Below are positions 11,429 through 57,547 of a DNA stretch of 64,000 bases, piece by piece. The notes under the pieces were generated by a model, which did not search any database, had not been told where the DNA came from, and saw only the letters and a list, made by a program, of their open reading frames with translations. The stretch comes from Candidatus Hydrogenisulfobacillus filiaventi. Its GTDB lineage: Bacteria > Bacillota > Sulfobacillia > Sulfobacillales > R501. Numbering within the stretch: the first letter of the stretch is position 1; each line of letters opens with the position of its first letter. The translations under genes and the position numbers were made by a program. Location of the stretch: contig LR778114.1 in the NCBI GenBank assembly GCA_902809825.1, positions 1,860,001 through 1,924,000 on the forward strand, read 5' to 3'.

Positions 11429-11574
11429 CCCGCAGGCCCACCATGGCCGCCATAAGCAGCAGGAAGCCCAACGTGATCACGGACGGGCGCCACCAGACAG
11501 CCGCAATGGCCATCAGCGCCAGCATGACCCATCCCATCCGCCTCGCCTCGCTTCGCCCCGACGACGCCGGGCCG

Positions 11575-11760: not shown

Positions 11761-11844
11761 GCCGCCACCCCCTTCTCTCCGCGGAACCGCGTCTCCGCGC
11801 TGATCCGCCTATATATCTCGGGCACACATCGACGCCGCGCCTCC

Positions 11845-14319: not shown

Positions 14320-14436
14320 GTGCATCAGTCCTCCTCGTGGTATGAAGCCCAGCGCCAGCCGTGCCAACGCTGCCTCGGCCGTGGTCAGACCCTCGAATCG
14401 TCCGGGGGGGGCATCCTCATACGCGATCCGCTCCTT

Positions 14437-22687: not shown

Positions 22688-24481
22688 ATGGGGGGGATCG
22701 CCATGAATCTGGTAGACGCCTACCTGGATCGCTCGGATTGGCGGGTCCAGGAGAACAGCAACATGGACTACAGTCTGCAGGGACTTAACACCTATCTGTC
22801 CGGTGCCGCTGTGGCGGATCACTGGCTGACGAGGGTGTATCCTGCTCCCATCGCGGAGGCGCATCGCTCCGGGGATCTGCACATCCATGATCTGGGCACC
22901 CTCGGACCCTATTGCGTGGGCTGGGACCTGTACGACTTCCTGCGCCGCGGCATCGCCGGCGTCCGGGGCAAGATCACCTCCACCCCGCCCCGCCATTTCC
23001 GCACGGCCCTGGGGCAGCTGGTCAACCTGCTGTACACCCTGCAGGGGGAGGCGGCGGGTGCGCAGGCGGTGTCGAACCTCGACACCCTCCTGGCCCCCTT
23101 CATCCGCGCCGACGGCCTCTCCTACGCCGACGTCAAGCAGGCCCTGCAGGAGTTCGTCTTCAATTTGAACGTCCCTACCCGGGTGGGCTTCCAGGCCCCC
23201 TTCACCAACATCACCCTGGACGTCACCGTCTCCCCCACCTACAAGGACTGGCCGGTGGTCATCGGCGGCGAGGACCAGGACACCACCTACGGCGACTACC
23301 AGGCGGAGATGGACCTGTTCAACCGCGCCTTCTGTGAGGTGATGCTGGAGGGCGACGGGCAGGGCCGGGGCTTCACCTTCCCCATTCCCACCTACAATGT
23401 GACCCGGGACTTCCCCTGGGACTCGGAGGTGGGCCAGGCCATCGCCCGCATGACCGCCAAGTACGGGACGCCCTATTTCGCCAACTTCGTGAGCGCGGAC
23501 CTGAACCCCGAGGACGCCCGCTCCATGTGCTGCCGGCTGCGTCTCGACCTCCGGGAGCTCAGGAAGCGGGGCGGCGGGCTCTTCGGCGCCAACCCCCTCA
23601 CCGGCTCCATCGGGGTGGTGACCATCAACCTGCCCCGCCTCGGGTACCTGTCCCGGAGCCGGGAGGAGTTCTTCCTCCGCCTCGCGCACCTGATGGACCT
23701 GGCCAAGGAGAGCCTGCTCGTGAAGCGCCGGCAGGTGGAGGAGTGGACCCGGCAGGGGCTCTACCCCTACTCCGCCGTTTACCTGGAGCCGGTGCGGGGG
23801 GCGTCGGGCGAGTACTGGAACAACCACTTCAACACCATCGGCCTGGTGGGCATGCAGGAGGCGGCCATGAACCTCCTGGGCCGGGGGATCGCGTCCGAGG
23901 CCGGGCACGCCTTCGCCCGCGAGGTGCTGGACTTCATGCGCGAGCGCCTGGTGCGCTACCAGGAGGAGACCGGCCAGCTCTTCAACCTGGAGGCCACCCC
24001 GGCCGAGGGCGTGAGCTACCGCTTGGCGCGCCTGGACAAGGAGCGCTACCCCGGCATCGTGCAGGCCGGAGACCCGGAGGGGGATCCTTACTACACCAAC
24101 AGCACCCATCTGCCGGTGGGCTACACCACCGACCCCTTCGAGGCCCTCGACCACCAGCACGACCTGCAGACCCGCTACACCGGCGGCACCGTGCTGCATC
24201 TCTTCTTAGGCGAACGGGTGGAGGATCCGCGGGTGATCGGGGAGCTGGTGACCGCCATCACCCGCAACTACGGCATCCCCTACTTCACCTTCACCCCCAC
24301 CTACAGCATCTGCCCCCGCCACGGCTACCTGGCGGGCGAGCAGTGGGAGTGCCCCTCCTGCCACGCCCCCACCGAGGTCTGGAGCCGGGTGGTGGGCTAC
24401 TACCGCCCGGTGCAGAGCTGGAACCGCGGCAAGCGGCAGGAGTTTTCCGATCGCCGCGCCTACGCCGTCCAGATGGATTGA
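22688..24481 (+). CDS. nrdD: Anaerobic ribonucleoside-triphosphate reductase (class III)
   Basis: The 597-residue enzyme makes deoxynucleoside triphosphates from ribonucleotides under anaerobic conditions with a glycyl radical. MCCRLRLD (Cys281-Cys282) holds an active-site Cys. C542-x2-H545 and C555-x2-C558 form the C-terminal metal site, and RVVGY puts the radical Gly at 570. The N-terminal ATP cone is absent, so allosteric activity control is probably lost. The ATG at 22688 lies ten bases after AGGAGG; 22703 is an alternative. No nrdG activase gene is in this window. Its very C/G-rich third positions look more uniform than its neighbours. Confidence 0.93.
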   Translation: MGGIAMNLVDAYLDRSDWRVQENSNMDYSLQGLNTYLSGAAVADHWLTRVYPAPIAEAHRSGDLHIHDLGTLGPYCVGWDLYDFLRRGIAGVRGKITSTPPRHFRTALGQLVNLLYTLQGEAAGAQAVSNLDTLLAPFIRADGLSYADVKQALQEFVFNLNVPTRVGFQAPFTNITLDVTVSPTYKDWPVVIGGEDQDTTYGDYQAEMDLFNRAFCEVMLEGDGQGRGFTFPIPTYNVTRDFPWDSEVGQAIARMTAKYGTPYFANFVSADLNPEDARSMCCRLRLDLRELRKRGGGLFGANPLTGSIGVVTINLPRLGYLSRSREEFFLRLAHLMDLAKESLLVKRRQVEEWTRQGLYPYSAVYLEPVRGASGEYWNNHFNTIGLVGMQEAAMNLLGRGIASEAGHAFAREVLDFMRERLVRYQEETGQLFNLEATPAEGVSYRLARLDKERYPGIVQAGDPEGDPYYTNSTHLPVGYTTDPFEALDHQHDLQTRYTGGTVLHLFLGERVEDPRVIGELVTAITRNYGIPYFTFTPTYSICPRHGYLAGEQWECPSCHAPTEVWSRVVGYYRPVQSWNRGKRQEFSDRRAYAVQMD

Positions 24482-25277: not shown

Positions 25278-27962
25278 TCACTTCATCCACACCCTTGGCA
25301 GAGTCCCGTCCCGATCGCGCTTGATCTCGATCTCGCCGATGGGCACTCCCCATCGGCCCAGGACCCGATTCCCCGCGTCCGTCATGGCCCGTTGCAGGGC
25401 GGCGGCGTCCCGCTCCGCCTCGGCGTCCGGCGAGCAGATCAGGATCTCGTCGTGCACCTGCCCCACCACCCTGGCCGCGGTGTCCGGCGCCAGCTCCCAC
25501 AGGCGCCGGATGGCCAGCATGGTCATGTCCGCGCCGGAGCCCTGATCCTGGAGATTCAGGGCCTGCGTCGATTTCCACACGGAAAACGGGCGGTTCAGCA
25601 GGGTGCGCACCCTCCAGATGTCGAACGGCCGGCGGCGTGGCTCCCCACCCGGGCCGTTCCGGACCAACAGCCATCGGCCGCGCTCGGACGGCGTGGCCAG
25701 CGTCCACAACTGCCACACCCGGAGCTCCGGGAGCGCCGCGAACCAGCGCTCCCGCAGATCGACGGCATCCTGTTCGGACAGCTCCAGGTCATAGATGACC
25801 TGGGCATAGGTTCGGAAGCCATCGGCACCCATGCCGTACAGCAGGCCGAAATTCGCACCCTTGGCCCGATCCCGCAGCGCCTTGTGCTCCGCCTTGAATC
25901 GGGCCGCCTCCTCCGGCGAGGCGGGCAGCGGCATCTCGTTGATCAGGCAGGCGGTGCCCACATGGATGTCCAGCCCCGACGCCAGCAGCTCCCGCAGCGT
26001 CGAATAGGGCAGGCCGTTGCCCGACGCCCTCAGCACCTGCCGCAGGCGCAGAGCCAGCTCCGTCCACGTGGCGACCCGCTCGGCCCGCTCCGCCTCCCGC
26101 CATTTGCGCGCCCGCCGCAACTCGCCGATCTCGTCCCATCGCGCCCGCACCTCCTGCGGGCTGGGGTCGACCCCTCCATCCAGCACAGCCCGCAACCATC
26201 GCCGCAGCTTGTCCCGATTCGGATCTTGAGACGCGATCACCGCCAGGATCTCCTCCTGCGCCCGCAGCGCCAGCGCGGCGGCCACCCGCATCTCCTGAGC
26301 GGCGTAGTCAGCCGCCAGGATGCGCCATCCCGGAGGCGCCTCCACAATCGCCCGGAAATCCGGATCGTGCGGAAGGTTCTGGATGTTCGGCTCCTGGCTG
26401 GACAGGCGGCCGGAGATCGGGCCATGCGCCAGCAGGGGGTGGATCCTGCCGTCCGGGGCCAGCCGGGCGGCGTAGTCCAGCGCCATGTCGCGCCGCTTGC
26501 GCAGAGCGCCCACGGCGTCCCAGGCCTTGCGCACCGCGTCGGCGTCCTGGTTGCCATGGCTCGCCCGCTTCAGCGCCTTCCTGCTCACGGCGGCCTTGCC
26601 GGTGGCGGTGGTGCCGATGCCGGCTCCCCGCCCCCTCAGGGAGGCGGCCAGCGCGGTACGGAACTCCTCGGATACCCCTTTCCCCGCCTTCAGATCCTCG
26701 ACCCAGGGCGACAGCTCCGGAGCCAGCTCCGCCAGCCGATCCACCGCCTCCATCGCCTTGGCCTCCTGGGCGTGCGCATAGCGATGCGCCGCCTCGGCGC
26801 TCAGCGGCAGGCCCGCCTCGCGAATGGCCACCACGTCCCGAATCTGCTGGCCCATGGCCGTGGCGTTCCAGGCCGGGTGCGCCTCCTTCCACGCCGCCCA
26901 TTGCCGCAAGGGGTCGTCGCCGGGATCCCCGCCAACGAGAGCCATCCACAGCCAAAAGGCCACGTCCACGTCCCCGATGGCATATCGATACAGCGGCTCC
27001 CGCAAGGGAACAGGCAGTGTCCAATGCGCCGGGCCCTGCCAGGTCTTGTCCATGCGGCGACCCAGCACCAGCCAGGCTAGCGCCTCCAGGCTCCACCCCC
27101 CCTTCGGCTTGTGGGCGTCCATCAGGCCCTCGGCCAAATGCCGGGCCTCCATCACCCGATCGGTGCCGGAATCGTCCCGGCTGGCGGCGTCCAGCAGCTC
27201 CAGCGGGGCATCCGGGCGGGCCAGGCGGGCCAACAGCAAAGTGTCCACCACCTCGTCCGGCCACGCCGCCGCATCGGCTCCAACGACATGGCGCAACCAA
27301 AAGAGGTCGAACCCGGCGTTGTGCCCCACCAGCACGCCCCTCAAACAGGCCGCCGCCACCCTCCGACGATCCGCCGGGGTCAGCGCGTCCAAATCCCAGG
27401 CCGCCGTCTCCAACGTCCCGTCGTCGGCCGGCCAGGCCGCCGTCACCACGCGCAGCCTCGGCCTCGTATCCACCGGTCCCGATCGCGGCAACCCCACCGC
27501 GGCGCGAGCGCTCCTGGCCAGACTCTCCGTCACCGGCTCCGACCATGGGGTCAGCGCGGTCGTCTCCACGTCCACCACCTTCCACGGAGCCGCGGCCAGG
27601 CGGTCCACCCGGTCATCCGCTGGAGCCCACAGGGATCGGGCTGCGACATCCCGCTCGTCCTCCCAGAACGTCGACTGCGCGACGACGCCTTTCTGGTCAT
27701 CGCGCCCCGGACGGGATGCCGACCCGCTGGACGGGGTCGACGGCGCGATCCTCGACGTGCTCCCCCCGGACGACATCGATGCCTTCGTTGGCGCCGATTC
27801 CGGCCTCATCATCGTCTCCATCAAATGCCATCGATGCTGGCGCAGGGCGGCCAGCGCGGATCCGTCGTTCACGGGAGAGGCCAGCCGCAGCGCATCGCCC
27901 ACGCGCTCAATGGACGCCGCAGCCAGCAGGCTGGCGCACTCCGGGCAGACGTTCCTCGTCAT
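25278..27962 (-). CDS. Family A DNA polymerase with 3'-5' exonuclease domain
   Basis: The 894-residue polymerase has an N-terminal extension with CPEC and a Ser-rich linker. The exonuclease domain follows with D131-x-E133 (VDVETT), GHNAGFD (D219) and YAIGDVD (D331). Polymerase motifs are A (ADYAAQEMRV, D552), B (RAKGANFGLLYG, K701 and Y709) and C (QVHDE, D838-E839). Motifs A and B are about 149 residues apart against about 53 in E. coli Pol I, so roughly 95 extra residues are inserted in the fingers/palm. No 5'-3' exonuclease domain is present. It is the probable replicative polymerase. Confidence 0.93.
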   Translation of the reverse strand: MTRNVCPECASLLAAASIERVGDALRLASPVNDGSALAALRQHRWHLMETMMRPESAPTKASMSSGGSTSRIAPSTPSSGSASRPGRDDQKGVVAQSTFWEDERDVAARSLWAPADDRVDRLAAAPWKVVDVETTALTPWSEPVTESLARSARAAVGLPRSGPVDTRPRLRVVTAAWPADDGTLETAAWDLDALTPADRRRVAAACLRGVLVGHNAGFDLFWLRHVVGADAAAWPDEVVDTLLLARLARPDAPLELLDAASRDDSGTDRVMEARHLAEGLMDAHKPKGGWSLEALAWLVLGRRMDKTWQGPAHWTLPVPLREPLYRYAIGDVDVAFWLWMALVGGDPGDDPLRQWAAWKEAHPAWNATAMGQQIRDVVAIREAGLPLSAEAAHRYAHAQEAKAMEAVDRLAELAPELSPWVEDLKAGKGVSEEFRTALAASLRGRGAGIGTTATGKAAVSRKALKRASHGNQDADAVRKAWDAVGALRKRRDMALDYAARLAPDGRIHPLLAHGPISGRLSSQEPNIQNLPHDPDFRAIVEAPPGWRILAADYAAQEMRVAAALALRAQEEILAVIASQDPNRDKLRRWLRAVLDGGVDPSPQEVRARWDEIGELRRARKWREAERAERVATWTELALRLRQVLRASGNGLPYSTLRELLASGLDIHVGTACLINEMPLPASPEEAARFKAEHKALRDRAKGANFGLLYGMGADGFRTYAQVIYDLELSEQDAVDLRERWFAALPELRVWQLWTLATPSERGRWLLVRNGPGGEPRRRPFDIWRVRTLLNRPFSVWKSTQALNLQDQGSGADMTMLAIRRLWELAPDTAARVVGQVHDEILICSPDAEAERDAAALQRAMTDAGNRVLGRWGVPIGEIEIKRDRDGTLPRVWMK

Positions 27963-36074: not shown

Positions 36075-36150
36075 TGGTCGGGACGGCGGGACTCGAACCC
36101 GCGGCCTCCGGCTCCCAAGGCCGGCGCGCCGCCATCTGCGCCACGTCCCG
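36075..36150 (-). tRNA. tRNA-Pro (UGG)
   Basis: All arms fold: acceptor CGGGACG/CGTCCCG, D stem GCGC/GCGC, anticodon stem CCGGC/GCCGG with loop CTTGGGA (anticodon TGG), T stem GCGGG/CCCGC with TTCGAGT loop, discriminator A and an encoded CCA. The C at position 1 is typical for tRNA-Pro. It is separated from the next tRNA by three bases, so both come from one transcript. Confidence 0.92.
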
Positions 36151-36153
36151 GTT

Positions 36154-36228
36154 TGGAGCTCCCAGGCGGACTCGAACCGCCATCTCCCGCGTACGGGGCG
36201 GGTGCCCTGCCGATTGGGCAATGGGAGC
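36154..36228 (-). tRNA. tRNA-Thr (CGU) with C33
   Basis: Acceptor GCTCCCA/TGGGAGC, D stem GCCC/GGGC, anticodon stem CCCGC/GCGGG and T stem GGCGG/CCGCC all pair; discriminator T and CCA are encoded. The loop CCCGTAC gives anticodon CGT (Thr, codon ACG). Position 33 is C, whereas almost all tRNAs have U33. The variable loop has four bases. Confidence 0.85.
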
Positions 36229-38141: not shown

Positions 38142-38170
38142 GAGACCCCCGGCTTCAGCCGCGGGGAGGA
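38142..38170. repeat. Right-end hairpin of the IsrB element
   Basis: The stem CCCCCGGCTTCAGCCGCGGGG overlaps the last codons of IsrB and lies 15-40 bases before the DUF2325 ATG. Its form matches the other IS200/IS605-type hairpins in this window. Confidence 0.6.
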
Positions 38171-39192
38171 GCGCCGCCTTTCCTCCTTTCTTTCGGTCTC
38201 CACACGCGCCAAGAACATGGCGCTAGCGCAACGATGTCCTCACGGCGGGCATTTTGTGTTAGCCGTCTCCCGTCCCGCATTGCGTGCAGGCTAAGTCGAT
38301 TCCCCATATAACCACCCACGTAGCAAAAACCGAACTTTGGATGGAGCACTTGCGTTCCACGACGCAGACCCAGGCTGACCGTCCCGCCATGCCGCCGCCG
38401 CCCGCCGCCCTTGGCGGGTTGCCGCAGATGGAGTGACCGGCGCCGGAAGCGCAACGGGGCCATCCGGAGGATTGGGGTGTGGTCCGGCACGGCGCCGCCC
38501 ACGACGGAGGCCGCCAGCACCCAGGCATCCACGCAGTGCGCCCAGAAGGTCTCGCGAGACTTGTTTGCGGTTTTGGGCAGTCCCCGGGCGTCGCGGAGCC
38601 GCTTGGTGTCGTATCCCGGCACCATCGTCACCGGAGCCAGGCGTCCCAGCTCCATGGAAAACCAGCGTTTGCCGGCTTCCAATGGGGAGAAGCGGACGTT
38701 CCAGCGGTGTTGACCGGGCCGGGTTTGGGCCGCCACGTCCTCGACCACGAAATGGGTGATGGGGTACAGCGAAGCCAGAAACCCGGCGATCCGGAGCTTC
38801 CACCCCCATCGAGCCCGGGTGGATGGCGGCAGGCCGCCCCGTGCCCGGTTGGCCCGGGGCGGACGGCAGGGCGTCTTCCGGTACCGGCGCCCCCGCCGCA
38901 TGTCCCGCCGGGCGGTCACGGCCTCCCGCACATGCGTGACCGCGTCCACGTGGAGGTTGACGAACGTGCGCCGCGCGTCTTTGACCGCGATCCCTTCCCA
39001 TTTCGAGCCCGGGTCGATGCCGCAGGCGACGGGTTGCGCCGCGCCATCCGTGCGGTCCAGAAGCTGGAGGTAGAAGAAGCCCTTCCGAAACCGCCGCACG
39101 GCTCGGCCTCGGCGAACGAGTTCTCGCGCTCGGGCCGGGTGGCAGGGCATGAGGGGCGTTCCGCGAGCGGAAAGAACCGGTATCCATCGCAT
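38155..39192 (-). CDS. isrB: IsrB, RNA-guided RuvC nickase-like protein (HNH-less IscB relative)
   Basis: The 345-residue protein has the PLMP domain (GTPLMPCHPARARELVRRGR, residues 11-30), RuvC-I (CGIDPGSKWEGIAV, D60), an Arg-rich bridge helix (about 95-118), RuvC-II (THFVVEDVAAQ, E151) and RuvC-III (HCVDAWVLAASV, H219 and D222). Only about 65 residues separate RuvC-II and III, so the HNH domain of IscB is absent, which defines IsrB. The length is typical. Catalytic residues are intact, so RNA-guided nicking of the non-target strand is expected. An omega RNA precedes it. Confidence 0.9.
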   Translation of the reverse strand: MRWIPVLSARGTPLMPCHPARARELVRRGRAVRRFRKGFFYLQLLDRTDGAAQPVACGIDPGSKWEGIAVKDARRTFVNLHVDAVTHVREAVTARRDMRRGRRYRKTPCRPPRANRARGGLPPSTRARWGWKLRIAGFLASLYPITHFVVEDVAAQTRPGQHRWNVRFSPLEAGKRWFSMELGRLAPVTMVPGYDTKRLRDARGLPKTANKSRETFWAHCVDAWVLAASVVGGAVPDHTPILRMAPLRFRRRSLHLRQPAKGGGRRRHGGTVSLGLRRGTQVLHPKFGFCYVGGYMGNRLSLHAMRDGRRLTQNARREDIVALAPCSWRVWRPKERRKGGAPPRG

Positions 39193-39664: not shown

Positions 39665-40531
39665 CTAGAACAGGGTCCAGGGTGGCTCGATGTCTGGCGG
39701 GGTGTCCGGTCCCAGGCCCAGCTCCCGGGCGGAGATCCGCCAGCTCTCCCACACCCCGATCCAGGCCCGCAGATCCGCCTGCTCCGCGGCGGCCTCCCAT
39801 GCGGCCTCCACGGAGGGTGGGGGTGCCCCCCACGCCAGCATACCAGCGTGAACGGCCAGGGCCAGGGCGTCCGACGCGGCCTCGTCCCACGGGGCGGGGT
39901 CCGCCGCCAGCCCGCGCAGCCACGCGGCCCACGCCTCCGGATCGTCCGACTCCGGGACGCCCACGGGGCGGGGGAGCGGGGCGATCTGGCGGGAGGACGC
40001 CTCCGCCCGCAAGACGGAATCCACGGCGTCCCGGAGGGCCGTCGGCACGGCGTCCTCCGCCTCCGGCGCGGCATCCCCCGCCCATCCCGCCACGACGGCC
40101 GCGGGCTCCACTCCGGCCCGGATGACGACCCACCAATCCGATTCTTCCACCAGGGGTCCCCAGGCCCATTGGTGCATCCGCATCTCCCGCCATCCCGCGC
40201 CGGCCGCCGGAGGAGCGACCCACCCGGAGCGCAGGGCCCACTCCAGCAGCGACCGACCCACCACCCAGTCGGCGTCCCCGGCGCGCTCTTCCTCGCGGAA
40301 CGGCCATCCGCCTCCCGGCCACCGCGCCACCGCCACCGCCCCCAGATAGCCCCGCCCGTCGGACAGCGGTCGCCACCAGATCGCGGCGCGGGAGGAGGGC
40401 ACCGGCAGGCGCCACCATTGGGGGCGGGAGGCGTCGAGATGGGGAGCCGCGACGTTTCCAGCCCCAGAGGCGGTCCCCCGATTTCTGCGTGCTCTCACCC
40501 GCTGCAGATCCCGTGCCATCAGGCCGTACAC
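39665..40531 (-). CDS. Hypothetical protein
   Basis: This 288-residue protein starts MYGLMARDLQRVRARRNRGT. It is very rich in Trp, Ala and Pro and mainly acidic; the sequence between 130 and 260 is helical. It was not recognised. The 200 bases downstream to the IsrB left end contain no gene. A foldable 42-base inverted sequence around 40580-40625 lies in its leader. Confidence 0.6.
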   Translation of the reverse strand: MYGLMARDLQRVRARRNRGTASGAGNVAAPHLDASRPQWWRLPVPSSRAAIWWRPLSDGRGYLGAVAVARWPGGGWPFREEERAGDADWVVGRSLLEWALRSGWVAPPAAGAGWREMRMHQWAWGPLVEESDWWVVIRAGVEPAAVVAGWAGDAAPEAEDAVPTALRDAVDSVLRAEASSRQIAPLPRPVGVPESDDPEAWAAWLRGLAADPAPWDEAASDALALAVHAGMLAWGAPPPSVEAAWEAAAEQADLRAWIGVWESWRISARELGLGPDTPPDIEPPWTLF

Positions 40532-40660
40532 AAGGCATCTCCTCTTCGTTGGTGGAATTCTCGCCCATAAAAGGAAAACCAGAAGAGGCGGGGTCCGTCT
40601 GAGTTCGGACGGCGAGGGGCCTCTTCGGTGCCAAATCCATCCTGTACTGGCAACAAACGG

Positions 40661-41035
40661 ATGGCGTCCTTACCTTTTTCGAGGGGTCGCATTACCTCTC
40701 GAAAATGGCCTCAAACCCGCATGGCTCTAGGAAAAATCGCGTGTGAACACCGCCTTACCTCTTCTGCGGAGATACCCCCTATGATCATCTGGGGAGATCG
40801 TTTTTTTTGCGGGTTTCTTGATCATCTGGATCTGGTAATGGGGATCTGGTAATGGGGATCTGGTTTCTCGTTTGATCTCCGTTTTTTCGAACAAAATTTT
40901 TGCCCCTATAATACATACTCTGTGGAGGTAAGACAGGTAAGAGAGGTAAGGATCCTTAAAAAATGGCGATATTATAACATCCACCACGTCTTGTGGTCCT
41001 TACCTCCCTTACCTCTCCGGCGCAATGAGGTAAGG
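40661..41035. other. AT-rich nonamer-repeat region, candidate replication origin
   Basis: This stretch is strikingly AT-rich for the window. It has nine copies of AGGTAAG or its complement: CTTACCT at 40669, 40692 (TTACCTC), 40754, 40999 and 41008, and AGGTAAG at 40926, 40935, 40944 and 41028. The 40924-40950 group is three exact-spaced 9-mers, and 40998-41015 two more. A 14-bp tandem repeat (ATCTGGTAATGGGG) is at 40830-40863. A TATAAT box is at 40907-40912. No gene is visible. The helicase gene lies right beside it. Confidence 0.65.
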
Positions 41036-41050
41036 CGAAGCGGCAAAAGG

Positions 41051-41086
41051 AGGACTCGGCGATCCGCATGCGGATCGCCGAGTCCT
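41051..41086 (-). terminator. Perfect 36-bp palindrome, terminator of the helicase gene
   Basis: The two 18-base arms pair completely. On the leftward strand it is followed by CTCCTTTTGCC. It lies three bases beyond the helicase stop and separates that gene from the nonamer region; it may work in both directions. Confidence 0.75.
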
Positions 41087-41088
41087 CG

Positions 41089-43737
41089 TCACTCCGCAGG
41101 CGGCGTCGCCGGGTCCGCCGCGGGCGAGGGCCTGATCCAGGTCTCCTTCGGCACGTCGAACCGGCGCAACATGGTCTCGATTCGCAGCACCACGCACTTG
41201 CGAGTGCCGTTGTGCACCCACTCGGCTTTGCTGACGTCGGCCACGAGCTCCGGATCCGACCGCAGCAAGCGCAGAAAGGCGCTGCGCCCCAGCCACGCCT
41301 CTCCGATCATCGCCGCCTGTCGCGCCATGGCCGCCAGCAGTTGCGCTTGATGGACGACCAGCAGCTCCGGGGCTTTGCGGGCCGGCTGCAGCATGACCTC
41401 CCTGCGATCCTCCGGCAGCGCGGCTTGCCGCTCCAGCAGCCGCACCATGGCCGCCACGGGACCCTCTTCCTGCCTGACCTCCTGTTGCGCGTCCATGGCT
41501 CGGAGGAAGACGGTCTGCAACACGTGCATCGCCTGATCCAGTCGCTCCAGCTCCCGCCCCAGGTCCGGAATCCACTCTCCCAGCCAATAAAGGCCGGCCC
41601 GCACGATGGCGATGTTGTGCCGGGGGCGTTCTGACAGCCCCCCAGCCTTCTGCGCGGCCTCGTCCTCTAAGCTGCCGTCAGCCGCCTCCAGCGCCTCCCG
41701 CACCCACGTCATCGGCGTCTCCGCCGCCCGGGCCCACAACCAGCCCGCCACCCTGCGGAGGGCGTCGTCCCCCAGATCCCGCAGATCCCGGAGGGCGTCG
41801 GCCGCGCCCGGGTGCCCGGCGATCTCCTCCCGACCCACCCAAACCGGCACCGAGCGCTCCATGAGCGCCCAGTCCTCCACGGCGGATTCTCCGACGAGGA
41901 CCACGGGCGCGGTCAGGTGGTAGTCCCGCGTGGTCTGGTTCGCCTGTCCCCGGGTCTCCCGCGCGCCCCGGTACGCCATGCGCAGGTAGTGGTGCAGCTG
42001 CTGCAGGTGCTCCTGCCGGATGTCCTGCGTGCGGTACTCGTCCAGCACCACCGGCAGGCTGTTGGTGGCGCTCAGCTCGCTCACCAGCGAGAACGGTGGC
42101 CTGCGGGCGCTGCCCAGGTCGTCCGTGGCGGCGAAGGCGAGCGCCAGCCGCTGGATCAGGGTCGATTTGCCCGTGCCCGCCGGCCCGTAGACGTTCAGGA
42201 ACGGGAACTCCCCCCAGCCCGCCGCCCGGATGAGGGGGGCGAGCAGGGCGGCGGCGAACCACCCCAGCAGGGTCCAGGCCACGGGAGGGGAGGCCGCCCG
42301 CGACAGCGGGGTCAGCACCCGTGCCGCCTCCGCCTCCGTGCCGCCGGGCAGGGGTCGGATCCGGCGCACGATCTCCGGAGCCTTGGGGTTGTCGAACCGC
42401 AGGTCGACGGCCTCGGCCGGATCTGGCAGTCCAGCGGCCCGTGCCTCGGGGGTTTTGACCCCCCACACCCCGCCGGGGTGCACCCAGATGCGGGGGGCGT
42501 CCGCCCCGTTCTCCTCCCACCGATCCAGCCCGTCCGCGGTGTGCTGGCCGGCCACGGGCGTCGTCTGCATCACGGGCAGGCCGGAGTTGGCCCAGGCCGT
42601 GATGTAGGCCATGGCGTCGCCCTTGATGGTGTGATCGATGGGCAGGCCGCGATCCGCCAGCCGCAGGATGAGCCGACTGTCCTCCGTCTCGCTCACGGCG
42701 GCCGAGAACGACTCCCATTGCCCGCCCTCGGTGAGGTGCCAGATCTCCCGGCGCCGCTCCCGCGTCTGCGCATCCACCAGAATGGCGGCGACGCAATACG
42801 GTCGGAGACCGGCTGGGCGCGGATCGGGCTCGGCGGGCGATCCGTCGTCCTCCTCCGCCTCCGCTTCCCGAGACCGGATCACCAGAGGCAGCTTGGTGTC
42901 GGGATCGAACAGCACGCCGTCCGGCACCCGCAGGGTCCGCAGCCGATCCGGCAAGCCCAGGGATCCCCAGACCTCGCCCAAGGACCCGACCCGCAGGGCC
43001 TCGTCCCGACCAGAGCGATCCCCGCCAGCGGATCCGTCCGTCGTGGACCCGGCGATATCCGTCTTGGACGGTCGCACCACCTGGAGACTCACCCGCCGCA
43101 ATCGCCGCTCGGCCTCTTGCTTGGGCACGCCGATGCCCCGCAGCCGATCGATGATCGCGGCATGGATGGACTGCGCCAGCGTGCCATCCAGCCGCGCCAC
43201 CTCGCGCTCCCATCGGGCGGCCTCCTGCAGATCCCGGTCCCGCAGGATGCGCTGGCCGCTTTGCCACTGCCGCAGCCATTGTCGGGCCTGCGCTTTGACG
43301 AGATACGCGCGCCGCCGCCGCCTCATCCGCTCGACGTGCTCCCGCCACCACTGCTTCGCCATGCTCCGCATCCAGGGCCTGGGATCCGTCCGACGCAGAT
43401 GCCGCAGCCACGACGGGAGATCGGAGCCGCCGTCCGCGCCGCATCTCCACATCCCGCCTGGGCCGAATTCCGGCCCAGCGTCCGCACCCCCGGCATGGAC
43501 ATGCGGATTGGCGGACAACCGGCGACGGGACCACGATGCCGCCGTCCAGCCTCCCCGCTCCCGATGCCGCGGCAGCAGGGATCGGATCGGGGAAGCCAGC
43601 CGGGTCCGCACCCGGGACGCGGCGTTGGCGCTGGCGCGCGCTTTCCGGGAGCCCGTGCTCCGCGCCCGCTTCCCGGCGTCCTGATCGGCGCTCGTCTGGG
43701 TCTCATCCGGCCGATGCGGGTCCTTGTCCTCCGCCAT
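41089..43737 (-). CDS. DUF927-type replicative helicase/ATPase
   Basis: The 882-residue protein has a basic N-terminal 220 residues, a DUF927-like middle, and an ATPase core with Walker A YGPAGTGKSTL (518-527) and Walker B LPVVLDEYRT (D566-E567). Similar proteins act as helicases next to primases in phages and plasmids. GGAGGTGG precedes the ATG. It lies between the primase gene (45306) and the nonamer-repeat region, supporting a role in initiation. The extreme N-terminus is low-complexity and basic and may bind DNA. Confidence 0.8.
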   Translation of the reverse strand: MAEDKDPHRPDETQTSADQDAGKRARSTGSRKARASANAASRVRTRLASPIRSLLPRHRERGGWTAASWSRRRLSANPHVHAGGADAGPEFGPGGMWRCGADGGSDLPSWLRHLRRTDPRPWMRSMAKQWWREHVERMRRRRRAYLVKAQARQWLRQWQSGQRILRDRDLQEAARWEREVARLDGTLAQSIHAAIIDRLRGIGVPKQEAERRLRRVSLQVVRPSKTDIAGSTTDGSAGGDRSGRDEALRVGSLGEVWGSLGLPDRLRTLRVPDGVLFDPDTKLPLVIRSREAEAEEDDGSPAEPDPRPAGLRPYCVAAILVDAQTRERRREIWHLTEGGQWESFSAAVSETEDSRLILRLADRGLPIDHTIKGDAMAYITAWANSGLPVMQTTPVAGQHTADGLDRWEENGADAPRIWVHPGGVWGVKTPEARAAGLPDPAEAVDLRFDNPKAPEIVRRIRPLPGGTEAEAARVLTPLSRAASPPVAWTLLGWFAAALLAPLIRAAGWGEFPFLNVYGPAGTGKSTLIQRLALAFAATDDLGSARRPPFSLVSELSATNSLPVVLDEYRTQDIRQEHLQQLHHYLRMAYRGARETRGQANQTTRDYHLTAPVVLVGESAVEDWALMERSVPVWVGREEIAGHPGAADALRDLRDLGDDALRRVAGWLWARAAETPMTWVREALEAADGSLEDEAAQKAGGLSERPRHNIAIVRAGLYWLGEWIPDLGRELERLDQAMHVLQTVFLRAMDAQQEVRQEEGPVAAMVRLLERQAALPEDRREVMLQPARKAPELLVVHQAQLLAAMARQAAMIGEAWLGRSAFLRLLRSDPELVADVSKAEWVHNGTRKCVVLRIETMLRRFDVPKETWIRPSPAADPATPPAE

Positions 43738-45305: not shown

Positions 45306-46352
45306 TCAGCGCCGCCCAGCCCGTGCCCTTCTCCCGGGCCGTCCCTCCACCTCCGCCCGGAACGCGGCCCAGTGCCGATCCGCGCAATGGTCGTGCAGGC
45401 ACCGGAATCCCACCGCGCCGTCGCCGGACCACCAGACCATGGTCTCGCTGTCGTTCGAGGTGGAGTGCTCCGCCTGCCACGGGCAGGCGATCAGGATCTT
45501 CGCCCCGCCGCCCTCGGCGGGCTTGGTGCCCCGGATCGCCACCCCATGGGCGGCCAGCCAGGCGAGCAGGTCGTCCAGGGTGCGGGCGAAGGCGGGCCTG
45601 GGCTGCGGGCCGTCCCCCCGCCGCGCCCCCCGATCGTCCGCCCAGGCCGCCACCGCCCGCAGACGATCCGCCGGCACGACCAGGATCCGATCCGGGATGG
45701 CCAGGATCCGCGCCGGCCGCCACGGGCGGTCGGGCGCGTTGGGCCCCTTGCGGGCCGTCGTGCCGTACACCTTGGAGACCCGGCCGGCGTTCCAGACCGA
45801 CTCGTCCACCTTGGCCCCCGGCCCCCGGATCCGGGCCGCGATGCCCCGCAGGACGCGGCGGACCAGATCCGCCGAGGCGGCGTCGGCCGGCAGGTCGACG
45901 CGGTAGAGGAGATGCGCCCCGTTGCCGCTCGCGGCCCGCACCGGATCCGGCCAGTCCCAGATGGCCAGGGCGTCCCGGATCCGCCCCGCCAGGGCCAGCG
46001 CCGCCTCCAGCTCGGCGTCGGTCGCGTTCGTCCCCGCCGGGCGGTCGGGGTCCAGATCGATCAGGAGCCACCGCCGGGCCAGGATGTCCTCGTCCCGGGC
46101 CGCCCGCCCGCCCAGGCGCAGGCGGTCCAGGGGGCCGTCCCAGGGGGCATCAGGCCGGAGCGGGTTGATCGTGGCGTACACGCCGGTGACCTCCGCCCGA
46201 TCCGACGCCGCCGCCGCCCGGACGAAGGCGTCACGACGGAGGAACCGCCCCACCGCGGGCGGTCCGCCCCGGCGCAGCACGCGCAGCTCCAGAGGGCTCT
46301 CGCCGTCATGTAGCAGGTCCCAGGCGCGGGAGAGATCGCCCTCGTCGGCCAT
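45306..46352 (-). CDS. Archaeo-eukaryotic-type primase (AEP) with C-terminal zinc finger
   Basis: The 348-residue protein has LLIDLDPDRP, the metal-binding DxD of AEP primases, near residue 92 and SGNGAHLLYRV, the SGxGxHxxY-type nucleotide-binding motif, near residue 140. C-terminal CPWQAEHSTSND and CLHDHC form a likely zinc finger. It should make primers for the DUF927-type helicase complex downstream. The chosen ATG follows GAGGAGGCG; 18 more residues upstream are possible. Confidence 0.85.
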   Translation of the reverse strand: MADEGDLSRAWDLLHDGESPLELRVLRRGGPPAVGRFLRRDAFVRAAAASDRAEVTGVYATINPLRPDAPWDGPLDRLRLGGRAARDEDILARRWLLIDLDPDRPAGTNATDAELEAALALAGRIRDALAIWDWPDPVRAASGNGAHLLYRVDLPADAASADLVRRVLRGIAARIRGPGAKVDESVWNAGRVSKVYGTTARKGPNAPDRPWRPARILAIPDRILVVPADRLRAVAAWADDRGARRGDGPQPRPAFARTLDDLLAWLAAHGVAIRGTKPAEGGGAKILIACPWQAEHSTSNDSETMVWWSGDGAVGFRCLHDHCADRHWAAFRAEVEGRPGRRARAGRR

Positions 46353-46573
46353 GCGCGTCGCCTCCTCGGTGCCTGTCGTACGGCGAACCATATCATCGCA
46401 AAACACCGGCTTGCTTCAACGGCTTCCACGGAACCACGGTCAAGCGACCGTGGAAACAGGCCGCCCCGGACGCCTTGCCGCGTCGCCTTCGCGGCGGCCG
46501 GGTGCGCGGCTGCACACGAGTCTCCGGGCGGTGGCTGCTTGCTGGTTGATGCCTGGCAGTTGCGTGATGAAGG

Positions 46574-49593: not shown

Positions 49594-51285
49594 TCAGCGG
49601 GTGGTTGCCCGGGCGCCGCGCGCGGCCAGCATTTCGTCGATGAGCCACGATGCCTCCCCCTTCGTCACGCTCTCCACGATTTCGGCTGGCGCGCCCAGGC
49701 GGCGGAGCAGCCGGCGCTGGGCCTCGGTGGCCGGCGCGATCTGCCACAGGGCGCCGGACAGGCGACCCCCGATGTCGTCCCGGTCGCCCCACAGCTCTCG
49801 CCAGATCCCGACGCGATGCCGGATCCAGGCGTCCATCGCCCGCTTGTGGGCGTCCAGCGCATAGCTCGCTTCCCACCTGGTGAGTCGTGCGACCTCGTCC
49901 TGCGGCCAGCCGAAGTCTCGGAGCCGCTTGGCCTGGGCCTCGGAGGGCGGCGCGTCCGGGTACTGCATGCGGGAGGCGGCCAGTTTTCGTTGCTCCCGGA
50001 GCAGATCCGGATCCTCCCGGATCTCGGCCAGATCTCGGGCCACATCCCGCCAGTCGGCGTAGGGCGCGTCCGCCCCAGCGAGATCCTCGTAGAGGTCCAA
50101 CACCCGTTCCGCCTCCACCCGATCCGGCCACAGGCGCGCCAACCAAGCCTCCGCGTCGGCGCTGAGCCGCGCCTCCCGGGCCATCCGCTCGCTGACCCGC
50201 GTCCCCTGCTCGGGCTCCTTGCGCAGGCCGAGCAGCGTGCGGATGGAGGCCAGCTTGTGCCTGCGGGTGGCGTCCACCACATCGATCACGATCACCGCGT
50301 CCTTGCCGGGCGCGATGCGGGTGCCGCGGCCCAGCATCTGGGTGTACAGCCCCAGGCTCTGGGTGGGGCGGGCGAGGATCACGGCGCCGATGGACGGCTC
50401 GTCGAACCCCTCGGTCAGGAGCATGGCGTTGCAGATGACTGGGGTTTCCCCCGTGTGCAGGCGCTGCAGCGCGGCCTGGCGATCGTTACGGGACATGCTT
50501 CCATCCACGGCCTCCGCAGGCACCCCGGCGGCGCGGAAGGTGTCGGCCAGGGCACGGGCATGGTCGACCCCGACGGCGAACACAACGGCACGCAGGCCGG
50601 GCGCATACTGCTGATACGCGCGCACGATGATGGCGTTGCGACCCGCGGTGTTGACGGCGCGCTCCAGCTCGCCGGGGGCGAAGTCGCCCGCCTGGATGCG
50701 CACCCGGTCCAAATCTGCCGACCCTTGCACCCGGTACGCCACGATGTCCGCCAGATAGCCCTCCCGGATCGCCTGCTGGATGGGGTAGGCATACGCGATG
50801 CCGTGGGGGAACACCGTGGCGAGGGAAATTTTGTCCCCCCGGAAGGGAGTGGCGGTGAGGCCCAGCAGCAAGCGGGGCCGGAAGTGGTCGATGGCCCGGC
50901 GATAAACGGGGGAGGGAGCGTGGTGCGCCTCGTCCACGACCACCAGGGGGAAGGCGTCCGGTGCCCATTGGGCGAGGCGCTTGGGCGTCAGGCTTTGCAC
51001 GGAGGCGAGCACGACGTGCGCGTCGGCCTCGTTCCGCTCGGCCTGCACCACGCCCACGGACGCCTCGGGCCAGACGCGGCGGAACGTGGCCCCGGCTTGA
51101 TCCAGCAGCTCCCCCCGATGCGCGATCCAGAGCACGCGATGACCGAGCTGCCGAGCGATGGCGACGGCTGTGACGGTCTTGCCGGTGCCGGTGGGGAGAC
51201 TGACCACCGTGCGCGCGGGGCCGGAGGCCAGTTGCTGACTGATCGCCTCGGCGGCCTCCCGCTGATAGGGTCGCATCTCCACCAT
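49594..51285 (-). CDS. Superfamily 2 DEAH-box helicase
   Basis: The 563-residue protein starts MVEMRPYQREAAEAISQQLA. Motif I is PTGTGKTV (residues 29-36), motif II DEAHHAP near residue 116, motif III TATPF near residue 145 and motif VI QMLGRGTR near residue 328. The C-terminal 220 residues are unique and helical. It is closest to the RecG/restriction-type or UvsW-like helicases that act on branched DNA. GGGGGAGG precedes the ATG and covers the upstream stop. It may serve recombination or replication restart. Confidence 0.88.
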   Translation of the reverse strand: MVEMRPYQREAAEAISQQLASGPARTVVSLPTGTGKTVTAVAIARQLGHRVLWIAHRGELLDQAGATFRRVWPEASVGVVQAERNEADAHVVLASVQSLTPKRLAQWAPDAFPLVVVDEAHHAPSPVYRRAIDHFRPRLLLGLTATPFRGDKISLATVFPHGIAYAYPIQQAIREGYLADIVAYRVQGSADLDRVRIQAGDFAPGELERAVNTAGRNAIIVRAYQQYAPGLRAVVFAVGVDHARALADTFRAAGVPAEAVDGSMSRNDRQAALQRLHTGETPVICNAMLLTEGFDEPSIGAVILARPTQSLGLYTQMLGRGTRIAPGKDAVIVIDVVDATRRHKLASIRTLLGLRKEPEQGTRVSERMAREARLSADAEAWLARLWPDRVEAERVLDLYEDLAGADAPYADWRDVARDLAEIREDPDLLREQRKLAASRMQYPDAPPSEAQAKRLRDFGWPQDEVARLTRWEASYALDAHKRAMDAWIRHRVGIWRELWGDRDDIGGRLSGALWQIAPATEAQRRLLRRLGAPAEIVESVTKGEASWLIDEMLAARGARATTR

Positions 51286-51287
51286 GA

Positions 51288-51647
51288 CTACGATGCCTCC
51301 CCCATCCGCTCCGCGAGATACCACCGCACAATGCCCCGCAGCAGCGTGCTGGGCGGCACGCCCAGCTGCTCGCCCCAGGCGACGAGCCGGGTCCGCAGCC
51401 CGGGCGGCAGCATGGTGCAGGCTTTGGGTCCCGCCAGGGCCTCCGTATCCTGTGCCCACCACACGGGGTCCAATTGGCTCTCCTCCACTGCGGCGGCGAT
51501 GGCCCGCCTGATGATCTCGGCCATCGGGACGCCCTTGGCGTCCGCCGCCTCCCGCAGCTGAGCCAGCACCCTGGGGGACACCCGCACGGTCCACGGCACC
51601 ATCGACGCCCTCGACCACGCCATGGCGGGGGCCAGACTTCTGCGCAT
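51288..51647 (-). CDS. Ribbon-helix-helix DNA-binding protein
   Basis: The first 70 residues include TVRVSPRVLAQLREAADAKG followed by VPMAEIIRRAIAAAVEE, an Arc-type ribbon-helix-helix. A second short helical repeat (LPPGLRTRLVAWGEQLGVPP then STLLRGIVRWYLAER) may be another copy. AGGAGGTGACACGG precedes the ATG. It is probably a transcription repressor or partition-like protein. Confidence 0.65.
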   Translation of the reverse strand: MRRSLAPAMAWSRASMVPWTVRVSPRVLAQLREAADAKGVPMAEIIRRAIAAAVEESQLDPVWWAQDTEALAGPKACTMLPPGLRTRLVAWGEQLGVPPSTLLRGIVRWYLAERMGEAS

Positions 51648-51665
51648 CCGTGTCACCTCCTTACA

Positions 51666-53512: not shown

Positions 53513-54508
53513 TTAGGTCTCGGCCACCTCCGTACCCTCGAGCTGGGGAAAGCCGAACCGCTCGGCGCATAGATCCCGGAAGTCGCATCCGGCGCATCCG
53601 TAGCGGGTCATCGGATTCGGGATGATCCGATCCGGCCGCGTGGCCAGGTCTTGCGCCCAGGCCAGCTGGCGGCGCACGCGATCGATGGCCGCCTCGGTCA
53701 CCGGCACCGTCACCGGGGTGTACACGGCGCCCTTGGAGGAGGTACGCAGATAGTCGAGTCTGAAGCCGGCGGGCTCCTCCCCCGTCTGCTCCCGCCAAGC
53801 TGCCCAGTAGACGGGCGCCTGCACGCTCTCCCATGCGACGGTGGGGCGGATGGCGCGCCGGGTGGTCTTGAGGTCGCGGATTACCCCTCGCTCGTCGACC
53901 ACGTCGATCTGCGCCGTGACCGGCAGGCCGTCCAGCACGACCTCCATGCGGCCCTCCACCAACCGCGGCTGGCCGATGGTGGGGCGCACGTCCCGCTCCC
54001 ATCCCGCGATGAGCGGGCGCCATCCATCCTGCGGCGGGGTCTCACTGACCTCGATCGCGATCTGCCGCGCGAAGTCCGGATCCACCCCCCGCAGGCGGGC
54101 CTCGGCGTATGCGTGTACGATGTGGCCGATTTCCGCCGCCTCGCTCCGGGGCCAGGCCCAGTCCGCGGGCAAAGGGAAGACTCCGGTCTCCCACGCGCCC
54201 TTGGCGGGGCACATGAGCCACGCGGTGAGCCGGGTCGGGGACCAGTTGCCGACCGGTAGCGGATCCACGCGACCGGTCGTCTCCTCCCCGACCCCGAGAA
54301 TGCTGCCCAGCAGATCGACGGGATCGACCCCCTGGGGCGGCGCGGGCCGCCGCGCGTCGGTCGAGTTCGGGATGGCGGAGGCGGGCACCCGGACCAGTCG
54401 CCCGATCCGGACCGATTCCAGTCGCCCGGATCGGATCCAGCTGCGGATGGTGCCCTCCGGGCGCCCCAGGATCCGGGCCACCTCGGCCACGGTCAGCAGG
54501 TTCGCCAT
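53513..54508 (-). CDS. MerR/excisionase-type HTH fused to a Cas4/AddB-like Fe-S PD-(D/E)XK nuclease
   Basis: The 331-residue protein starts MANLLTVAEVARILGRPEGT; residues 4-50 form a winged helix-turn-helix of the excisionase type. From about residue 88 comes a PD-(D/E)XK nuclease with H132 region, D202, D212-x-K214 (RDLKTT) and Q230. C100, C305, C308 and C314 match the Fe-S cysteine layout of Cas4/AddB/RecB-family nucleases. It is the first gene of the leftward early operon. The HTH fusion is unusual; the phage nucleases I know lack it. It probably trims DNA ends during recombination or replication. Confidence 0.8.
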   Translation of the reverse strand: MANLLTVAEVARILGRPEGTIRSWIRSGRLESVRIGRLVRVPASAIPNSTDARRPAPPQGVDPVDLLGSILGVGEETTGRVDPLPVGNWSPTRLTAWLMCPAKGAWETGVFPLPADWAWPRSEAAEIGHIVHAYAEARLRGVDPDFARQIAIEVSETPPQDGWRPLIAGWERDVRPTIGQPRLVEGRMEVVLDGLPVTAQIDVVDERGVIRDLKTTRRAIRPTVAWESVQAPVYWAAWREQTGEEPAGFRLDYLRTSSKGAVYTPVTVPVTEAAIDRVRRQLAWAQDLATRPDRIIPNPMTRYGCAGCDFRDLCAERFGFPQLEGTEVAET

Positions 54509-54565
54509 CTCCGCTCTCCCTCCACCAGTCCAGATTGGGCTGTGGGTTGATGACTGCGCACCCCA

Positions 54566-54594
54566 ACCATAGCACAGAGCGGGCTGGTCAGCAA
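54566..54594 (-). promoter_or_regulatory. Leftward early promoter
   Basis: TTGCTG (54589-54594) and TATGGT (54566-54571) are 17 bases apart on the leftward strand. The spacer begins ACCAGCCCG, shared with the promoters at 54612 and 58058, a likely repressor site. Confidence 0.65.
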
Positions 54595-54611
54595 CGGTCG
54601 AATGCGTGGTA

Positions 54612-54640
54612 TTTACTTCCAGCCCGAGACGTGCTACGAT
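54612..54640 (+). promoter_or_regulatory. Repressor promoter
   Basis: TTTACT (54612-54617) and TACGAT (54635-54640) are 17 bases apart. The spacer contains CCAGCCCGAGACGTGCTA, similar to the divergent promoter, so the repressor probably regulates itself. Confidence 0.6.
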
Positions 54641-54689
54641 GCGGGGCGATCTGGAGCATCTTATCGCTATCCGTGAAAGGGGGATGACG

Positions 54690-55838
54690 ATGCGGAAGGT
54701 GACGCCCCAGCAGCGCAAGCGAATCGGCCGGCGCATTCGGCGGCTGCGCGAGCAGCGGGGATGGAGCCAGACCGCGGTGGCTGGGATGCTGGGGGTGCAG
54801 CAGCGCACCATTAGCAACTACGAATGCGGCAACCGCCTGCCGGCGGTGCCGCTCATGCATCGGCTGGCGGAGATCCTGAACGTCCCGATCACGGATCTGA
54901 CGAGTCCTGAGCCGTGGGAGGACGAGCCTCCGCTGGAGGGAGACGAGGCGACCGAGGCAGAGGAGCCGACAGTGGAGACGGCTGAGGCCAAGCGGCGCCG
55001 AGCGCTCACCACCTCACCATGGAACTGGCTCAGCATCGCGACGGCCGTCCGATCCCAGCGTCTCTGGAGACGATGGACCACAGCCAAGCTGGCAGAGCGG
55101 GTGGGAGTGGACGTGGCGGTCGTGGAGGCGATGGAGAGCGGCGATCCCGTGCCGCTCGACCTGCTGCGGAGGGTAGCTGATGAGCTGGGTCTGGGTCTGG
55201 CCTCCCTGCTGGCCACCGCGCGCAAGGATCGGGAGCCGGCCGTCGTGGAGGGAGGGGTGCCAGTCCGATCCGTGCCAGTGCTGGGGAGGGTGGTGGCGGG
55301 GGTGCCGATGGAGGCGCAGCCGGACAAGATCGGGATGGCTTGGGTGCCGTCCGCCTTGCGCGCCGATTTCGCGCTCGAGGTGCGGGGGGACTCCATGATC
55401 GGTGCTCACATCTTCCCCGGTGATTGGGTCATCGTGCGCAAGGTGGATGCGTGGCAGGACGTGGAGGATGGCCGGATGGTGGTGGCGGCCACGAACGGCG
55501 GGGAAACCACGTTGAAGTATCTGATCCGCGAGCCGGATCCGGCGGGGGATCGATGGTGGCTACGAGCCGCCAATCCGGCTTACCCGGATCGCCCCCTCGA
55601 CCCCGAACAGGATCGGGTGCTGGGGGTGGTGGTGCAAATCCAGAGCACCAGGCCGCCGGAGAGCCCTGCGGTCGCAGCCAGCCGGGCAGCAATCGCGCCC
55701 CTACCCGCCCAGGATCTGGACCCCCTTGAGGGGCTGACACCTGAGCAGCGGGCGGCGGTGCTTGCCCTGATCGCCCAGCTGCGATCCGCCAACCGGGATC
55801 ATGAGAAGAAGCAGCCGGGGAGTGACGAGGTGGATTGA
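54690..55838 (+). CDS. LexA/CI-like repressor with S24 autoprotease domain
   Basis: The 382-residue protein has an N-terminal XRE helix-turn-helix (residues 15-65), a second HTH-like region (about 128-172) and a C-terminal S24 peptidase: cleavage site Ala203-Gly204 in VVAGVP, Ser235 in RGDSMIG and Lys276 in TTLKYL. RecA-stimulated self-cleavage should induce the element after DNA damage. It starts at ATG 54690 after AAAGGGGG. Two DNA-binding domains in one such repressor is unusual. Confidence 0.88.
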   Translation: MRKVTPQQRKRIGRRIRRLREQRGWSQTAVAGMLGVQQRTISNYECGNRLPAVPLMHRLAEILNVPITDLTSPEPWEDEPPLEGDEATEAEEPTVETAEAKRRRALTTSPWNWLSIATAVRSQRLWRRWTTAKLAERVGVDVAVVEAMESGDPVPLDLLRRVADELGLGLASLLATARKDREPAVVEGGVPVRSVPVLGRVVAGVPMEAQPDKIGMAWVPSALRADFALEVRGDSMIGAHIFPGDWVIVRKVDAWQDVEDGRMVVAATNGGETTLKYLIREPDPAGDRWWLRAANPAYPDRPLDPEQDRVLGVVVQIQSTRPPESPAVAASRAAIAPLPAQDLDPLEGLTPEQRAAVLALIAQLRSANRDHEKKQPGSDEVD

Positions 55839-56645: not shown

Positions 56646-57212
56646 TTATGCATCCTGTGGGCGGTCGAGGCGCCACATTTCCTGGGGCAGTCCGAGCGCC
56701 TCGGCCAGATCCCGCCAGGCCCAGGCGATCCATCGGGGATCGCCGACGTAGTCCGGCAGGGCGTTCAGCACCCGTTGCCGCGGTTCGACCGCGTCCACCC
56801 GTCGCGCGACGGAGAGGGCGTCCTCGGGATCCTGCTTCTGCCATCGCCCAAGCTTGGAGACGATCCAATCGATGGGATCCAGCCAGCCGACGGTCAGGTG
56901 CTCGAAACGGGCGGGTGACCACCGCGCCCGCTCCTCCCAGCCGGCCGGCAGCCAGGCCACTCCCTCGGCCCGGAACGAGAGGCCGAGGCGCGCGGCGATC
57001 TGCCGCAGGCGATCCGGCAGCGCGTCCGACGTGCGCAGCAGAGCGTCGATGTCCTCCGTGGATCGGGCCGGCCGATCGAAATAGAACGGCAGGGCGCTGG
57101 CACCCATTAGCACGACTATCGCATGGGCACCCGACGGCCATTCCTCGGCGGCGTCCCATGCCCGCAGGGCGTCCAGCACGGCCTCCTGGTCCGGAAACCC
57201 GAGATGCGTCAT
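56646..57212 (-). CDS. DUF6036-like nucleotidyltransferase-fold protein
   Basis: The 188-residue protein starts MTHLGFPDQEAVLDALRAWD. LMGASALPFY then RSTEDIDALLRT gives the GS...D-x-D pattern of the nucleotidyltransferase fold, with degenerate catalytic spacing. GGGAGGCGTGG precedes the ATG. Members of such families act in AbiEii-like toxin systems. A possible partner gene lies at 244-645, far away in this window. Confidence 0.65.
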   Translation of the reverse strand: MTHLGFPDQEAVLDALRAWDAAEEWPSGAHAIVVLMGASALPFYFDRPARSTEDIDALLRTSDALPDRLRQIAARLGLSFRAEGVAWLPAGWEERARWSPARFEHLTVGWLDPIDWIVSKLGRWQKQDPEDALSVARRVDAVEPRQRVLNALPDYVGDPRWIAWAWRDLAEALGLPQEMWRLDRPQDA

Positions 57213-57547
57213 TCCACGCCTCCCGCCCGCAGCAGGGGGCCGCAGTCCAGCCATCCAGCCCCCCACCGCGCCCGCGCGCGCCCCTCGACCGCGCAGGCCA
57301 CCATCGCCCACAGCACGGCACCCAGGCGCTCCAGCCGCAGCCAGTCCGCGACCGGACGCCTGGGCTCGCGCTCCCAGGCCTCGGCCAGGGACGACGGCCA
57401 GATGTCCTGGGTCAGCCACGCCACGATGGCCCAGGTCTCCGGCCGGGCGTACGGCCCCCATTCCAGGCTGCGCCAAAACCAGGCCGCCTCATGCCGCGCC
57501 AGCGCCTCGGTGTCCGACCGCGGCGGGCGGGACAGCAAGGGAGTCAC
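57209..57547 (-). CDS. Hypothetical protein
   Basis: The 112-residue product starts at a GTG directly after the previous stop and overlaps the next gene as ATGA. It is Trp/Arg-rich and helical (WFWRSLEWGPYARPETWAIV). It probably forms an operon with the nucleotidyltransferase-fold gene and may be its partner. Not recognised. Confidence 0.6.
   Translation of the reverse strand: MTPLLSRPPRSDTEALARHEAAWFWRSLEWGPYARPETWAIVAWLTQDIWPSSLAEAWEREPRRPVADWLRLERLGAVLWAMVACAVEGRARARWGAGWLDCGPLLRAGGVE

Follow-up and report, generated by a model that had tools for sequence, protein, structure and literature searches.

In an integrated mobile element of a GC-rich bacterium, a short, AT-rich stretch of repeats lies directly past a helicase gene; what is its function? 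We analyzed a window of 64,000 nucleotides (positions 1,860,001-1,924,000) from the genome of 'Candidatus Hydrogenisulfobacillus filiaventi' R50 (PMC10080006), a single contig of 2,570,337 bp that was also scanned as a whole. The original prediction, made from the letters of this window, described the stretch as a candidate replication origin that may depend on a new initiator. Our best reading, of high confidence, is that 40641-41088 is the replication origin of the element, with the adjoining helicase as its putative iteron-binding initiator.

Two clusters of iterons flank the weakest duplex of the window

Searching both strands of the window, we found nine exact copies of AGGTAAG, compared to 0.96 expected, a number that none of 100 shuffles matched. 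Eight of these copies are located within the array, spanning 40669-41034 in two clusters and in both orientations (Table 1). In place of the nine AGGTAAG/CTTACCT sites originally counted, the array has eight exact sites and one degenerate site; the ninth exact copy is at 61675, 20 kb away. The grouping of five sites into exact 9-bp tandems in both orientations was confirmed, with the triplet and the pair facing each other across 44 bp. When the 450 bp located 3' of the helicase stop were shuffled with dinucleotides preserved, none of 300 shuffles reached eight copies. In a pattern search of the 2.57-Mb genome, AGGTAAG pairs at 9-bp spacing were found only here. A looser pair pattern (GGTAAG, wider gaps) was found at three further places, the same frequency as that of a backward control, so we claim uniqueness only for the 9-bp AGGTAAG pairs.

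The AT-rich, presumed unwinding segment was also borne out. At scales of 60, 100, and 200 bp, the minimum of duplex stability for the 64 kb falls within this segment, and at the 375-bp scale the weakest stretch is 40632-41006, which spans it. The 14-bp tandem repeat described previously is present as well and has degenerate GGTAAT cores. Such an arrangement, with two clusters in both orientations around the weakest duplex and an AAA+ helicase beside them, is that of a helicase-initiator origin. The GC skew, a check named with the original prediction, kept nearly the same sign throughout the 144 kb surrounding the site, being negative almost everywhere, and did not switch at the array. This neither supports nor refutes an origin, because an element that is mostly copied passively in the chromosome makes the skew uninformative.

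Table 1 Features of the array, the adjoining genes, and the replication module in the window.
Feature	Coordinates	Strand	Basis or remark
Iteron AGGTAAG	41028-41034	+	Exact word search
Iteron AGGTAAG	41008-41014	-	9-bp tandem with 40999-41005
Iteron AGGTAAG	40999-41005	-	Exact word search
Iteron AGGTAAG	40944-40950	+	Third of 9-bp tandem triplet
Iteron AGGTAAG	40935-40941	+	Triplet member
Iteron AGGTAAG	40926-40932	+	Triplet member
Iteron AGGTAAG	40754-40760	-	Distal cluster
Degenerate iteron AGGTAAT (top strand ATTACCT)	40691-40697	-	Distal cluster; ninth site
Iteron AGGTAAG	40669-40675	-	Distal cluster
14-bp tandem repeat with degenerate GGTAAT cores	40819-40864	+	
AT-rich segment, presumed unwinding site	40779-40978	.	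Duplex stability
Next gene past array, function unassigned	39665-40531	-	Codon usage; not conserved beside array in relatives
Perfect 38-bp palindrome	41050-41087	.	About 1 bp past helicase stop
882-aa AAA+ helicase, proposed initiator	41089-43737	-	Ends at array; winged-helix-like C-terminus, about residues 790-870
366-aa weakly AEP-like primase candidate	45306-46406	-	LigD_Prim-Pol E 0.0034, under curated cut-off
Superfamily 2 (ResIII) helicase, same replication module	49594-51618	-	
Ribbon-helix-helix protein	51288-51656	-	
HTH and PD-(D/E)XK nuclease, same module	53513-54817	-	
CI/S24-type repressor of element	54606-55838	+	Divergent
Tyrosine integrase of element	58437-59612	+	

Limits of the gap and a palindrome at the helicase stop

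The gene-free gap is larger than the 375 bases first described. It measures 448 bp (40641-41088) if the longest ORF in the other frame is taken as the next gene and about 557 bp (40532-41088) if the frame is fixed by codon usage, which favors the gene given in Table 1. The palindrome that was said to close the array at 36 bp is indeed perfect but is 38 bp long and has a likelier role elsewhere. As RNA, it folds with -46 kcal/mol and is followed by CUUUUG, and it lies directly after the helicase stop; it is therefore more likely to be the 3' end of the helicase (operon) transcript than a part of the array. A hairpin and a T-run were found at the same place in several helicase relatives. We read a transcript end at this position as shielding the array. 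A gene encoding an RRXRR-domain protein (38155-39192) was also observed close to the array.

The adjacent helicase resembles initiator helicases at the fold level

The original prediction placed DUF927-type helicase and primase genes beside the array. The 882-aa helicase does adjoin it, but the AEP-like gene is 4.2 kb away, and neither the window helicase nor its relatives in loci L012, L016, L017, L045, and L077 matched Pfam DUF927 at E 0.01. The helicase matches phage primase/helicase PHROGs (E 1.8e-10). An AlphaFold model of residues 330-882, of middling confidence with a mean pLDDT of 64, matched SCCmec Cch best (5dgk; Foldseek E 6.5e-8, with a VIA Z of 20.2 across 351 residues), while SaPIbov1 Rep (8tch) scored Z 16.8 and MCM helicases 14.0 or less. 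The last ~110 residues were modeled as E-H-H-E-E-H, a winged-helix-like order. This C-terminal model gave weak matches (Z ≤5.3), mostly to winged helices that bind DNA, RFX and the pCW3 oriT protein among them, and a Foldseek search with the C-terminal domain alone returned no significant match. We propose from the models that this helicase group, which we do not file under DUF927, may work like SaPI Rep and Cch, with which it has the fold in common. Since the helicase itself models as a Cch/SaPIbov1-Rep-type initiator helicase with a winged-helix-like C-terminus, the separate new initiator suggested originally is not needed.

Arrays follow the helicase gene in distant relatives

To place the array in the helicase family, we drew relatives from the same order, the same phylum, viral contigs, and annotated phages. 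This gave 16 loci from Bacillota elements, a metagenomic phage, and a haloarchaeal virus, two of which (L073 and L074) are near-duplicates, so that the independent cases number fewer than 16. Locus L070 was left out, as its match was to the N-terminal part, so that the stop found there was a different one from that of the helicase. A profile search of genome contigs with a closer set of relatives recovered mainly the same loci. Viral contigs searched with the window helicase alone gave no match, nor did a plasmid collection, and a DNA-level search of phages with the array gave only a 37-bp chance match.

In 14 of the 16 loci (the window and 13 of the 15 others), the 450 bp after the helicase stop was the top segment of the locus for a repeated 7-mer, which strongly supports the candidate origin. 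These post-helicase segments held 3-12 copies; among 483 control segments, one reached six copies and five reached five. Sites were found in both orientations, and 39 of the 45 close pairs had a same-strand spacing of 8-11 bp. The flank was the most AT-rich segment or nearly so in most loci, and the AT-rich stretch was not always located between the clusters. Only a weak array was found in L015. No array was found 3' of the full-length helicase relative in L018 (8899-10947), where the downstream DNA is GC-rich.

The search for the word in related elements, also named as a check, was positive. The flank in L016 contains the same word as the window, AGGTAAGG, with helicases that are only 28% identical overall. 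Most loci had their own lineage-specific word of 7-8 bp: GTTAAGA (L012), GTTAACA (L013), TGTAAGG (L017), TGTAACA (L045, a viral contig), GGTAACA (L073 and L074), AAGTTAC (L071), AAGGCAC (L072), ATAATAC (L075), GGTTAGA (L067), GTGGACA (L076), and TGTAACA (L077, Halorubrum virus CGphi46). These top words were more alike than words taken elsewhere (other segments, 0 of 400 draws; shuffled flanks, 4 of 400). This suggests common descent as a moderate signal, judged from the words themselves.

The array goes with the 3' end of the helicase gene rather than with the downstream gene or a promoter. The gene on the far side of the array is of the Bro-N type in L017 and an unrelated ORF in the window. 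In L016 it is a small convergent ORF, which looks from its sequence like a ribbon-helix-helix gene; no start codon faces the array there. These observations bear on whether the sites are operators, bound by a repressor or activator that controls a promoter in the gap for the next gene leftward. The element encodes CI-like and ribbon-helix-helix regulators, and a TATAAT hexamer (40907-40912) adjoins the triplet. This hexamer, originally described as a TATAAT box, is present, but no sigma-70-type site passed in a scan of the array gap, and a + strand transcript would just run antisense into the helicase gene. Promoter operators are unlikely in L016 because the next ORF converges on the array, and across the relatives it is the helicase gene that the array follows while the gene past it varies. 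We therefore consider operators a very improbable explanation.

A centromere-like partition site was also considered. Omega/ParR-type ribbon-helix-helix proteins bind short repeats in both orientations, a gene of this fold is found in the window, and ORFs resembling it were seen in L016 and L017. The gene in the window is 10 kb from the array, however, and the ParA/partition-like genes are far off on the left, whereas the constant neighbor of the arrays is the helicase. The AT-rich core and two separate clusters are also unlike contiguous heptad arrays. A partition site seems very improbable.

The loci with the fewest genes bear on which protein reads an origin of this kind. L012, L013, and L016 consist of regulator-like ORFs, the helicase, and the array, with no primase gene in between (ORF identities assigned by eye), and this makes the helicase the obvious candidate for a common binder. 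In many iteron plasmids the initiator and the helicase are separate proteins. With several uncharacterized ORFs near the array in the window, one of these or the ribbon-helix-helix protein could bind the iterons of the origin and merely recruit the helicase. The reduced loci, where regulator-like ORFs and the helicase are all that accompanies the array, speak against such a division of labor, as does the structural likeness to self-loading initiator helicases; we regard this division as unlikely, and the helicase is the best candidate for the array binder.

Two viral loci extend the helicase-linked arrays beyond Bacillota elements. In Halorubrum virus CGphi46 (NC_021537.1, 6068-6515), an unannotated gap of 448 bp after a gene annotated as 'DNA primase' contains about 12 GTGTAACAT-type sites in both orientations. 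As in the window, the repeats lie directly past the stop of a helicase of the same family; the differences are the archaeal nature of the virus, the word, and a PriCT_2 primase-type domain on the helicase. This gap is a likely origin of the virus. In the viral contig L045 (IMGVR_UViG_3300005068_000134, 9231-9580), about 12 TGTAACA-like sites follow a 1008-aa primase-helicase with a fused N-terminal region, and then ORFs that appear terminase-like by eye.

In L017, the Bro-N protein encoded past the array (10099-11208) repeats a piece of the helicase middle domain (E 1e-5). From this sequence likeness, it is possible that this protein is a regulator derived from the initiator.

The replication module and the surrounding element

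Rightward of the helicase, the window contains the AEP-like gene, a thymidine kinase gene, and genes for the SF2 helicase, the ribbon-helix-helix protein, the PD-(D/E)XK nuclease, the CI/S24 repressor, and the integrase. The product of the AEP-like gene has no sequence match in the PDB and is 48% identical to that of the gene directly before the helicase in L017. The L017 module parallels that of the window, with an SF2 helicase, an AEP-like gene, the helicase, and the array (other L017 names were read by eye). The SF2 helicase of L017 (3153-5630) seems to have an intein-like insertion, as judged by eye from its translation.

The left part of the window encodes a family-A DNA polymerase, a sliding clamp, and methylases, and ParA, Tad-type secretion, and cell-wall-binding proteins are among the large left-hand genes. 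The sliding clamp and the polymerase (13318-14367 and 25278-27962) are unusual equipment for an integrated element. Further genes include an anaerobic ribonucleotide reductase (NRDD; 22409-24481) on the strand opposite to most of its neighbors, tRNA-Pro and tRNA-Thr inside the mobile region (36075-36228), and a DUF6036/AbiEii-like nucleotidyltransferase on the integrase side (56646-57476). A TnpB/Cas12f-like gene is located left of the window (L053, 13938-15329). In L055, two three-ORF blocks with identical lengths (82, 79, and 126 aa; 6793-8110 and 10469-11785) lie about 3.7 kb apart, probably as a recent duplication.

No terminase was found near the element with the phrog_2 model, which also gives hits in most control genomes. 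A comparison of the integrase side with the rest revealed no convincing direct repeat that could mark attachment sites; the longest was 18 bp and inside genes. A known plasmid initiator of the Rep_3/RepA type, which would mark an iteron plasmid with a separate initiator, was not found among the neighboring ORFs scanned.

Comparison with known systems and a proposed mechanism

The alpha protein of phage P4 is a helicase-initiator that reads short iterons in both orientations, as proposed for the window helicase. P4 alpha is a single primase-helicase-binding fusion, whereas the primase candidate in the window is a separate gene. SaPIbov1 Rep and the window helicase share the helicase fold and short iterons directly 3' of the helicase gene; the primase gene near Rep may have a counterpart in the weakly AEP-like candidate of the window. 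In contrast to SaPIbov1, the window helicase is too distant for the Pfam DUF927 model, the host is a Sulfobacillus relative with 70% GC, and the region comes with a polymerase and a sliding clamp of its own. SaPI Rep has been reported to recognize iterons directly downstream of its own gene via the C-terminal domain (PMC7581432). In SCCmec, which provided the best structural match (Cch), the C-terminal domain of Cch2, a member of a helicase family other than that of Cch, binds direct repeats downstream of cch2, a position shared with the array in the window (PMC7581432). The cch2 origin has only three 5-nt iterons (PMC7581432), compared to eight 7-mers in two clusters here, and the primase of SCCmec pattern 2 is an A-family polymerase-MP pair, unlike the candidate in the window.

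By analogy with these systems, we propose that the origin would be used after excision of the element. On either side of the AT-rich segment, the helicase would bind the clustered AGGTAAG iterons through its winged-helix-like C-terminal domain, probably forming multimers of opposite orientation. Its AAA+ rings would next melt this segment and, once loaded on both strands, would unwind the DNA in outward directions. Priming could be carried out by the AEP-like primase of the element or by host DnaG, followed by polymerase extension.

Implications for the helicase family

This kind of origin is already known from staphylococcal islands. New here are the breadth, covering Bacillota elements, a viral contig, and an archaeal virus, the fixed position, and the drifting words; in the literature searched, with partial coverage, we found no description of such fixed-position, drifting-word arrays across this helicase family. 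The helicase-linked arrays of the Bacillota elements, the phages, and the haloarchaeal virus may or may not, with about equal probability, descend from one ancient module: an initiator helicase gene with a two-cluster iteron origin, in which an octamer close to RRGTAACA changes together with the C-terminal domain of the helicase, and neither the geometry nor the position changes.

The results provide a positional rule, namely to inspect the DNA just past the stop codon of a member of the helicase family. This rule found likely origins in most of the distant relatives tested, and its reach included a phage contig and, in an archaeal virus, a gap left without annotation in the public record. A likely initiator and its recognition word can now be named for an element of a thermophilic H2-oxidizing bacterium, which opens a minimal replicon, and possibly a genetic tool, to testing. 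The loci also offer natural initiator-iteron pairs for studying the evolution of origin recognition.
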